A stretch of 34,957 nt of DNA from an uncultured Pelagibacteraceae bacterium (GTDB lineage: Bacteria; Pseudomonadota; Alphaproteobacteria; Pelagibacterales; Pelagibacteraceae). The translations under genes were made by a program, and so were the position numbers. The stretch lies in the NCBI GenBank assembly GCA_902595885.1, contig CACJRQ010000011.1:1-34957 (forward strand). The letters run 5' to 3'. Numbering within the stretch: the stretch's first letter is position 1; each line of letters starts with the position of its first letter. Below the pieces are notes generated by a model. That model had not been told where the DNA came from and made no database searches. It worked only from the letters and a program-made list of their open reading frames with translations. This document shows, in pieces, positions 8,024 to 11,376 of this stretch.

Positions 8024-8346
8024 CATATATCGTAAACGACAATTGTATTAAGTGCAAACTAACAGACTGCGTTGATGTCTGCCCAGTTGATTGCTTTTAC
8101 GAAGGTAAAAATATGCTTGTAATTAAACCCGATGAGTGTATAGATTGTGGCGTTTGCGAGCCAGAATGTCCCGTTGATGCCATAAAAGCAGACACTGAAC
8201 CTGGAAGTGAAAAATGGTTAGAGATCAATAAAAAATATTCTGAAATCTGGCCTAACATAAGTGAAAAAAAAGATCCACCAGCGGATCATGAGAAATTTAA
8301 AAATGAGCAAAATAAGTACGAAAAATATTTTAAAGAAAATCTTTAA
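8020..8346 (+). CDS. fdxA: Seven-iron ferredoxin FdxA
   Basis: A 108-residue ferredoxin carrying one [3Fe-4S] and one [4Fe-4S] cluster. The cysteine pattern matches Azotobacter ferredoxin I shifted by one: C9, C17 and C50 for the 3Fe cluster, and C21, C40, C43 and C46 for the 4Fe cluster, with C12 and C25 extra. The strings [13 protein letters not shown] and [16 protein letters not shown] are nearly identical to that protein, and the tail ending in [11 protein letters not shown] is also conserved. It is a soluble low-potential electron carrier; partners are not identifiable here. It overlaps the TerB-like stop by 4 nt and the carD start by 44 nt if carD begins at 8303. Its conserved position before carD fits the alphaproteobacterial order. 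Confidence 0.95.
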
Positions 8347-9199
8347 AGGCAAAACAAATAAAAAAGTGAAAAAAAAAGTTTCTAAAAAGAAGGTTGTAAA
8401 AACAAAAAAAACGGTAAAAGCTAAAAAAGCTAAAAAAATAATTACAAAAAAAGTCAAAAAAGTTACTAAAAAAGTTTCACCTAAAGTTAGTAAAATAAAA
8501 AAAACCGTTAAAGCTGCAGAAACAACAGCTGATCCAAAAGTAGATAATTTAAGAATTTCTAAAACAAATGAGGTTAAACCAGAAATTAAGAAAGTTAAAA
8601 AACAAGATAGTGAAAAAAGAGAATTTAAAGTGAAAGATTATATAGTCTATCCTAAACATGGAGTTGGTCAAATTACTGAATTCAAAAAAATCAACATAGG
8701 AGGAATTGATGTTGAAACCTACGTGATTAAATTTGAAAAAGATAAAGCTAATGGGATGGTTCCTGTAAATAAACAATCACACTTAAGACCACTTTCAACT
8801 GTTAATCAAATTAACAAATGTATTTCAATATTAAAAAGTAAACCAAAAATAAAAAGATCTATGTGGAGTAGAAGGGCCCAAGAATATGAGTCTAAAATTT
8901 CATCTGGAAAGGTTTATGAGTTAGCTGAAGTGGTAAGGGATTTAAACAAGGGTGATGACCTTATGGTAGAACAATCATACAGTGAAAGACAATTATTTGA
9001 AAAAGCATATGATAGAATACTTAATGAATTTCAAATAGTTTTGAATATATCCTTAGAAGATACCCAAAAAAAATTAGATAAAGCTCTAAAAAGAAATTTA
9101 GCTGGACAATCTCAAACAACATCAATTCCAAAACCTCCAGCTTCGGATCTGCCAGTTGATGAACCTATTTCAGAAACAGAAGAACCTATAGAAGAATAA
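8303..9199 (+). CDS. carD: CarD/CdnL RNA-polymerase-binding regulator with lysine-rich N-terminal tail
   Basis: The core is a CarD_CdnL/TRCF-type RNA polymerase interaction domain ([20 protein letters not shown]) beginning near residue 107 of a 298-residue product, followed by the helical DNA-binding part ([16 protein letters not shown], then LAEVVRDLN, then [17 protein letters not shown]). CarD proteins bind the beta subunit and stabilise open promoter complexes, notably at rRNA promoters. Ordinary alphaproteobacterial members are about 165-170 residues; here about 90 extra residues precede the core, dominated by Lys with Ala, Val and Thr and resembling a histone H1 tail, and an acidic Pro/Glu tail ends the protein. 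I chose the ATG at 8303; in-frame ATGs at 8261 and 8288 and a GTG at 8366, which would avoid overlapping fdxA, are alternatives. A terminator follows at once. Confidence 0.88.
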
Positions 9200-9200
9200 A

Positions 9201-9242
9201 AAAAAACGCCTCTCACACAAACTGTAATGAGAAGCGTTTTTT
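9201..9242 (+). terminator. Bidirectional terminator between carD and the mini-protein gene
   Basis: Stem CGC-C-TCTCA (9207-9215) pairs with TGAGA-A-GCG (9228-9236) with one C-A mismatch and a 12-nt loop. It is flanked by A on the left and T on the right, so it works as an intrinsic terminator for carD on the plus strand and for the converging mini-protein gene on the minus strand. Confidence 0.85.
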
Positions 9243-9260: not shown

Positions 9261-9353
9261 CTATTTTCTTCTTCTTTTTTTTGCTTTTTTCTTAGCTTTT
9301 TTCTTAGCTTTTTTCTTAGTTTTCTTTGCCGCTTTTTTTCTTTTCTTAGGCAT
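9261..9353 (-). CDS. 30-residue Lys/Arg/Ala mini-protein, H1-tail-like
   Basis: A very short reading frame: ATG at 9353-9351, TAG at 9263-9261. The product starts MPKKRKKAAKKTKKK, continues with KKKA repeats and ends KKRRRK. Apart from Met, Pro and one Thr it contains only Lys, Arg and Ala, so it should be disordered and bind nucleic acid by charge, like a minimal histone H1 or a lysine-rich nucleoid peptide. That is inference; I know no characterised homologue. Support for a real gene: a GGGAG ribosome site 7-11 nt before the ATG, a TTGACA promoter element and palindrome upstream, and a terminator 18 nt after the stop. The middle is built from three perfect 12-bp units (9284-9319) each coding KKKA. 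It faces carD, whose own tail has the same composition. Confidence 0.78.
   Translation of the reverse strand: MPKKRKKAAKKTKKKAKKKAKKKAKKRRRK
9284..9319 (-). repeat. Three perfect 12-bp tandem units inside the mini-protein gene
   Basis: Plus-strand units CTTTTTTCTTAG occur at 9284-9295, 9296-9307 and 9308-9319. On the coding strand each gives a lysine-rich KKKA-type block. Being in frame, gain or loss of a unit would only lengthen or shorten the peptide. Confidence 0.9.
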
Positions 9354-9377
9354 CTTTAGCTCCCTTTTTTAGTTAAA

Positions 9378-9394
9378 CGAATCAAATTGATTCG
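9378..9394. promoter_or_regulatory. Perfect palindrome upstream of the mini-protein gene
   Basis: CGAATCAA-A-TTGATTCG is a perfect 8-bp inverted repeat around one base. It lies 25 nt upstream of the mini-protein ATG and just downstream of its predicted transcription start, a position typical of an operator or a short 5' hairpin. It contains two GANTC sequences, the CcrM methylation target in alphaproteobacteria. Confidence 0.55.
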
Positions 9395-9405
9395 CTATTA
9401 ACATA

Positions 9406-9434
9406 TTTTTATTTTTTTCTATACGTTATGTCAA
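9406..9434 (-). promoter_or_regulatory. Predicted sigma-70 promoter of the mini-protein gene
   Basis: On the minus strand a consensus TTGACA (9434-9429) is followed after 17 nt by TAAAAA (9411-9406), a four-of-six match to TATAAT. Transcription would begin near 9399, giving a leader of about 45 nt that includes the palindrome and the GGGAG site. Confidence 0.5.
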
Positions 9435-11291: not shown

Positions 11292-11376
11292 TGGTGGGCG
11301 AAGAGAGAATCGAACTCTCACTTCTTGCGAAACACGATTTTGAGTCGTGCGCGTCTACCAGTTCCGCCATTCGCCC
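11292..11376 (-). tRNA. tRNA-Leu (anticodon CAA)
   Basis: An 85-nt tRNA with CCA encoded. Read on the minus strand: acceptor GGGCGAA/TTCGCCC, D arm GCGGAACTGGTAGACGC, anticodon stem CACGA/TCGTG with loop CTCAAAA giving CAA, a class II long variable arm of 13 nt, and T stem GAGAG/CTCTC with loop TTCGATT. It decodes UUG. A TATAAT (11397-11392, minus strand) lies 15 nt before the mature 5' end and is a plausible -10 element; the -35 region is poor. The 3' end is 7 nt from the synthetase start codon. Confidence 0.97.

Follow-up and report, generated by a model that had tools for sequence, protein, structure and literature searches.

Protamines are very basic, Arg-rich proteins of about 21–30 residues. 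The antisense small RNAs (sRNAs) that act in trans form a class whose members cover the Shine-Dalgarno sequence (SD) and the start codon. Among bacteria, Hc1 and Hc2 of Chlamydia and AlgP of Pseudomonas display, in the excerpts of the sources available, a Lys/Ala-rich low complexity, and the length of Hc2 varies through lysine-rich repeats (excerpts of PMC2848022). Another described element, the rhtB RNA (RF01814, 'rhtB sRNA' in Rfam), was reported by Meyer et al. in 2009 (PMC2704228) next to an adjoining LysE-type gene. The available portions of that paper mention a poly-U track 3' of about half of the examples, including that of P. ubique, and name no target or function. It was alone among the open-access matches for the names of this RNA, for which no function was found in that literature.

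The window analysed here is the whole stretch of 34,957 nucleotides from an uncultured Pelagibacteraceae bacterium. It carries, between carD and a gene encoding an AMP-binding enzyme (PF00501), a small reverse-strand gene, hereafter called the mini-gene. Its peptide, MPKKRKKAAKKTKKKAKKKAKKKAKKRRRK, comprises 18 K, 4 R, 5 A and one each of M, P and T, i.e. 22 Lys/Arg and five Ala among 30 residues. The order read in the mRNA sense is TTGACA, a weak A-rich −10, the hairpin CGAATCAATTTGATTCG, GGGAG, CTAAAG, ATG, the frame, TAG and a hairpin with a T-run. The features are as follows.

8261–9199, forward strand: carD, frame as listed (PF02559, PF21095)
9201–9242, both strands: hairpin with T-runs on both strands, terminator common to the mini-gene and carD, seen as an inverted repeat
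9261–9353, reverse strand: mini-gene, 30 codons, Lys/Arg/Ala peptide (ATG 9353–9351, TAG 9263–9261)
9345–9364, reverse strand: start region, from the SD to codon 3, complementary to the RF01814 loop with one C-C mismatch at codon 2
9360–9364, reverse strand: SD GGGAG, from sequence and conservation in relatives
9378–9394, reverse strand: palindrome CGAATCAATTTGATTCG, 8-nt arms around one base, read as an mRNA 5'-end hairpin
9405–9411, reverse strand: predicted weak A-rich −10, AAAAAT (spacing 18) or TAAAAA (spacing 17)
9429–9434, reverse strand: −35 box TTGACA, from sequence and leader conservation

The frame, its composition and the GGGAG ribosome site (9364–9360), all of them put forward in the original prediction, were found again on re-reading the sequence. 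At the Rfam gathering thresholds, the whole window has a single match, a tRNA at 11295–11376.

The frame at 9261–9353 on the reverse strand is a real gene. The carD loci of relatives were gathered independently of the small frame. Among the first relatives, 33 of 41 genomes matched and 30 loci were kept, window included; a Lys/Arg/Ala frame lies downstream of carD and opposite to it in 27 of these, and the other three (L014, L018 and L030) are cut by contig ends and too short to judge. In the named Pelagibacteraceae and Pelagibacterales loci, which are the best 80 of the matches, a mini-gene convergent with carD and equipped with a GGAG site is found in 79; a search of other SAR11 genomes had been proposed in the original prediction. 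The sole named locus devoid of it, L064 (CVSD01000016.1), carries different DNA directly behind carD, owing to a rearrangement or an assembly join. Twenty-six further genomes, of which G033 also belongs to the first set, yielded 23 carD loci in ten other genera of the order (g5–g10 from the same family; g2, g3, g4 and g11 from the sister family), and the mini-gene is present in all 23. Outside the order, 95 genomes matched and the mini-gene was found in none of the 28 carD loci examined, one of which offered just 309 nt behind carD; in a GC-rich locus, the composition filter let through a single GTG frame of 18 codons. The mini-gene is more than a chance frame, as relatives share its position, frame, composition, SD and leader; the check set by the original prediction, for a frame or signals broken in close relatives, left it standing. 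Few cells on Earth are as numerous as the Pelagibacterales, which have very little spare DNA, so that a nitrogen-rich mini-gene kept across the order likely matters. Gene callers whose floor is near 30 codons would miss most of its copies in the window's genus.

The window and the 79 named mini-genes comprise 48 different ORFs, which encode 30 different peptides (22–35 aa). Their pairwise pN/pS is 0.31 at 25 aa (n=15 distinct), 0.27 at 26 aa (n=4) and 0.23 at 27 aa (n=13), and it is higher in the small sets of 29 aa (0.58, n=3) and 30 aa (0.52, n=4). To judge from the two largest sets (0.23–0.31), the mini-gene evolves as a protein. All the loci read give 63 distinct peptides, the shortest of 21 aa (MAKRRKKAKKKKAKKRRRRRR) and the longest of 91 aa (AAPKKK repeats), with a Lys+Arg share of 53–86% (1155 K vs 359 R); some peptides from the sister family f2 are trimmed in this set, as they start at an internal GTG, and their full forms were read separately. 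This family has forms of 76–91 aa with AAPKKK/KRKPAKK and one form of 40 aa. As in H1 tails, the length drifts whereas composition and a basic C-terminus persist, and the low-complexity Lys/Arg/Ala(/Pro) composition with variable length is that of an H1-tail-like or protamine-like polycation. The H1-tail-like composition pointed out for the window is plainer still in the long f2 forms.

The mini-gene peptides of the window's genus (21–35 aa) are much shorter than Hc2 (165–237 aa). They are like protamines in size and basicity, the shortest ones ending in Arg runs, and differ from them in being Lys-rich overall, bacterial and known here from sequence alone. No Pfam, NCBIfam or PHROGs family matched the window peptide and its relatives, a difference from bacterial H1-like proteins; a Pfam line at E 8.5 for one f2 form is meaningless, and one match at E 0.52 among PDB sequences is uninformative. 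The HC2 family (PF07382) was found in none of 58 genomes of the order and for none of three related peptides in Pfam-A, and no Hc1 family came up when the window peptide and three relatives were compared with Pfam-A. As for the winged-helix of linker histone H1, the 30 residues have no Pfam match up to E 10 and resemble the tail alone. The resemblance of the peptide to an H1 tail or a protamine is one of composition. The mini-gene has no description in the open-access literature among the matches listed; the available portions of PMC5069961, PMC2864753, PMC2864571, PMC11109978 and PMC5069720 mention neither the mini-gene nor a function of RF01814, and the terms asked for are absent from PMC7368042. 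The gene thus appears to have escaped description, as had been suspected.

Promoter-like sites alone are at chance level in the window (2 found vs 1.7 expected in shuffles). Support for the promoter comes from the conservation of TTGAC across leaders, since it lies 38–42 nt ahead of CGAATC in 122 of 122 distinct leaders; with the orthologues behind carD, this upholds both the TTGACA element (9434–9429) and the idea that the mini-gene is genuine, conserved and served by its own promoter. Of 297 genomes of the order, 212 match the leader pattern CGAATCAN{1,8}GATTCRN{8,36}GGGAG; the reversed pattern has one hit among the matches listed for these 297 genomes. The palindrome is perfect (9394–9378), as first described, but it does not behave as a fixed operator. 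Indeed, both families share its 5' half CGAATC, whereas its 3' half varies such that other genera restore the hairpin with a different sequence: the arms are CGAATC/GATTCG in g1, CGAATC/GATTTG in most g8 leaders and in the g9 leaders, GAATCA/TGATTC in f2, TCACTTAG/CTAAGTGA in g7 and ATCACATA/TATGTGAT in g5. The palindrome is therefore best read as a 5'-UTR RNA hairpin, which would perhaps serve message stability. Folding beats that of CGAATC-keeping shuffles in 15 of 18 representative leaders (p at most 0.022) and is not better than shuffles in g1 L020 (0.062), g8 L158 (0.218) and g9 L172 (0.164). Further copies of the palindrome in the same genome were rejected as near control level: with up to three mismatches, its pattern has five sites, of which one, that of the mini-gene, is exact, and the reversed pattern has three.

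The hairpin at 9201–9242 has 15-nt arms, 93% complementary, around a 12-nt loop; it is absent from the list given by the terminator scan, which was restricted to loops of 3–8 nt. The terminator ascribed to the mini-gene is thus present but not exclusively its own, as the T-runs on both strands imply that it ends the convergent carD as well.

An 18-mer around the SD and the ATG, GGGAGNTAAAGATGSCTA, was searched in 399 genomes of the genus and is present in 338. Among the 19 genomes at least 95% complete, it occurs exactly twice in 16 and once in three, according to a count by eye. The second site in the genome of the window is the following.

L210, 1468–1548, reverse strand: RF01814, identified by its covariance model

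This partner is a member of RF01814, with 78.8 bits vs a cut-off of 55 (82.1 for L205 and 80.3 for L207) and a LysE-type neighbour, the adjoining PF01810 gene at L210:862–1476. On the Rfam strand, the sequence exposed by the hairpin is CUUAGCCAUCUUUAGCUCCCGG; the window mini-gene differs from its reverse complement, GGGAGCUAAAGAUGGCUAAG, by one base, at codon 2. The start region of the genus, GGGAGCUAAAGAUGGCUA, is the complement of the RF01814 loop, and the Rfam consensus carries the same loop. This match between loop and mini-gene start is a new point with respect to the available portions of PMC2704228. It had also been missed by the original prediction.

Several observations bear on the strand of this RNA. 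An extended −10, TGnTA, lies 7–9 nt ahead of the hairpin in 34 of 34 genomes on the Rfam strand and in 0 of 34 on the opposite one, and a T-run lies 3' of the hairpin in 8 of 34 genomes on the Rfam strand vs 0 of 34 on the other. G-U pairs are found in the stem on the Rfam strand in five of 38 genomes, none being seen on the other strand; four of the five sit at one stem position and may be few events. The 34-genome counts, like the 32 pairs described below, omit four genomes with a stem wobble (G189, G197, G200 and G230), with which the total is 38. A LysE-like start lies at most 32 nt 3' of the hairpin in 30 of the 34 genomes. The hairpin and its loop are kept in the four others (G042, G472, G577 and G652, at L279, L280, L311 and L285), which favours an RNA with its own role. 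As in the trans-acting antisense sRNAs, the loop of RF01814 is complementary to SD and AUG, and the RNA has its own promoter-like site; it differs from them by a near-perfect match of 18–20 nt, which in the 19 most complete genomes recurs at no more than one further site each, and by usually running towards a LysE gene.

The complementarity is extended and covers the start region of the mini-gene. In the genome of the window, loop and start pair at −34.2 kcal/mol with one mismatch (C-C, codon 2); the next best of 37 start regions of the window, whose start positions were taken from the listed frames, reaches −17.9 kcal/mol, and the best tile clear of the mini-gene, among 6984 tiles of the window, −24.6 kcal/mol. 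In the 32 genomes with both parts, pairing ranges from −33.3 to −38.3 kcal/mol and is in each case below all of the genome's own 200 shuffles. However, the 38 genomes with both sites fetched were selected by the exact 18-mer, so that the independent evidence comes from the carD-chosen mini-genes, the covariance-model copies and the Rfam consensus. From the SD to the ATG, GGGAGCTAAAG is found in 79 of the 80 carD-chosen mini-genes (window included) and GGGAGTTAAAG in one. Six RF01814 copies found by the covariance model carry the antisense loop, with 14–19 nt exact; the loop of G001 was compared with the mini-gene of another genome because its own is cut off.

The RNA exceeds its cut-off in six of eight genomes of the window's genus and in none of 37 genomes of other genera; thus, it cannot explain the conservation of the mini-gene across the order. 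Matches in other genera are weak, at most 29.2 bits, and 5 of 14 control genomes also matched below the cut-off. The weak matches of which a locus was retained (L218–L230, L232–L241) were rejected, as they are either devoid of an antisense to the start region compared or the mini-gene itself; for G028, G062, G130, G140, G149 and G172, the start region compared was that of a genus-mate's mini-gene. In 46 genomes from other genera of the same family, the antisense pattern TTAGCCATN{3,10}CTCC gave no second site with the genome's own spacer among the matches listed. The spacer between SD and ATG is variable in 17 loci from other genera of the family (AAAAG, ATAAG, ATAAAG, GCAAAG, CTGACA and others) and fixed in the window's genus, as expected if the RF01814 loop fixes it. 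Within the genus, start region and loop stay constant together; outside it, RF01814 was not found above the cut-off in the 37 genomes scanned. Codon 2, however, is CCT in 50 of 80 mini-genes of the genus, a mismatch that the unchanged loops do not follow, and the pair therefore does not covary at this position.

In our judgement, it is rather probable that the mini-gene is a conserved, translated SAR11 gene encoding a nucleic-acid-binding polycation, whose translation would be controlled by RF01814 as an antisense RNA in the window's genus. It would be transcribed from its own sigma-70-type promoter into a short mRNA that has a 5' hairpin and ends at the terminator common to carD. The peptide, a minimal polycation that is probably disordered, would bind DNA and/or RNA by its charge, like an H1 tail or a protamine; it may be the abundant nucleoid peptide that the original prediction proposed, beside an RNA-binding one, from composition. 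RF01814 would be transcribed from an extended −10 promoter of its own, in most cases just upstream of a LysE-type exporter gene, and its loop would pair with the SD, the start codon and codon 2, hindering ribosome binding and lowering synthesis of the peptide in this genus. The adjoining LysE gene suggests, speculatively, a link to amino-acid export.

The nature of the ligand is where the closest rival departs from this explanation. We regard it as possible, while leaning against it, that the polycation binds RNA, as an RNA chaperone or in association with ribosomes, and is not a nucleoid peptide. Its charge comes without sequence-specific features, and a leader hairpin together with what looks like antisense control of translation would be fitting for an RNA-binding protein; Gaballa et al. 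reportedly describe small basic proteins alongside an sRNA in B. subtilis. However, the 76–91 aa forms of f2 resemble H1 tails (AAPKKK, KRKPAKK), and no ribosomal-protein or chaperone family matched. The peptide might also be a by-product of a message acting mainly as RNA, whose run of Lys/Arg codons would sense charged tRNA. Lys and Arg account for about three quarters of the codons and a LysE-type gene adjoins the complementary RNA, but the amino-acid constraint seen in pN/pS, the versions of up to 91 aa and the presence of the mini-gene in genera where RF01814 was not found make such a sensor hardly credible.

Two other rivals concern the regulatory signals. The palindrome could be the DNA operator of a repressor, as its dyad is perfect in the window and its CGAATC 5' half is kept in both families. 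This is highly unlikely: half-site spacing varies, g5, g6 and g7 have a different, longer stem in place of the dyad, most representative leaders (15/18) fold better than shuffles, and the genome of the window has no second exact copy. Regulation could also be reversed or two-way, the mini-gene mRNA acting on the LysE leader; the short distance to a LysE-like start in most genomes (30/34) and the AGGA, a possible LysE SD, within the 3' arm of the RF01814 hairpin would fit. We nevertheless hold it to be decidedly unlikely, given that hairpin and loop persist in the four genomes without a LysE-like start and that loop pairing need not open the outer stem.

The match provides a testable target for an RNA described in 2009, and if RF01814 acts as an antisense RNA on the mini-gene, the two would rank among the few defined pairs of an RNA and its target in streamlined marine bacteria. 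Mini-gene and RF01814 are two orphans that may explain each other. A bolder reading, which we consider unlikely, would make the peptide an order-wide bacterial 'protamine', nucleic-acid-condensing and down to 21 residues, its synthesis being set in Pelagibacter by an antisense loop in the leader of a LysE-type exporter. Genome streamlining may have whittled such a peptide down from an ancestor resembling an H1 tail. Should this hold true, a peptide made of three-quarters Lys/Arg would be tied to amino-acid export, and RF01814 would gain its first function.

Occlusion of the SD in cis was considered, as a CUCC or CCUC in g5, g7 and f2 leaders is able to pair with the SD or codons 2–3. It was dropped since accessibility from SD to AUG is not clearly below that of shuffles in 20 leaders (fraction of shuffles at or below the observed value: 0.02 in g9; 0.09 and 0.11 in g5; 0.72–0.98 in four of seven f2 leaders). 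The f2 leaders (e.g. L022, L024 and L174) display a conserved AACCTCTAAC(T/G)AAAC, then a small stem immediately ahead of the SD; the arms of this stem are CCC/GGG in most leaders and CGC/GCG in those of genus g4. Viral copies were also sought: the 18-mer is present in four IMG/VR stretches, three of which have it at the beginning of one kind of frame (MANNLEAVIPKV...) and the fourth in another context, none resembling the mini-gene or RF01814. In the genome of the window, a DUF2805 gene (PF10985; L210:1594–1890, forward strand) is divergent from RF01814, and a gene with the same start is also found in L205 and L207. Lastly, the N-terminus of CarD (window 8309–8530, forward strand) carries a long Lys-rich H1-like tail, and a similar tail is found in SAR11 and several other alphaproteobacterial loci (L177, L178, L183, L186, L187 and L198). 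The mini-gene thus adjoins the gene of a transcription factor with a similar tail.
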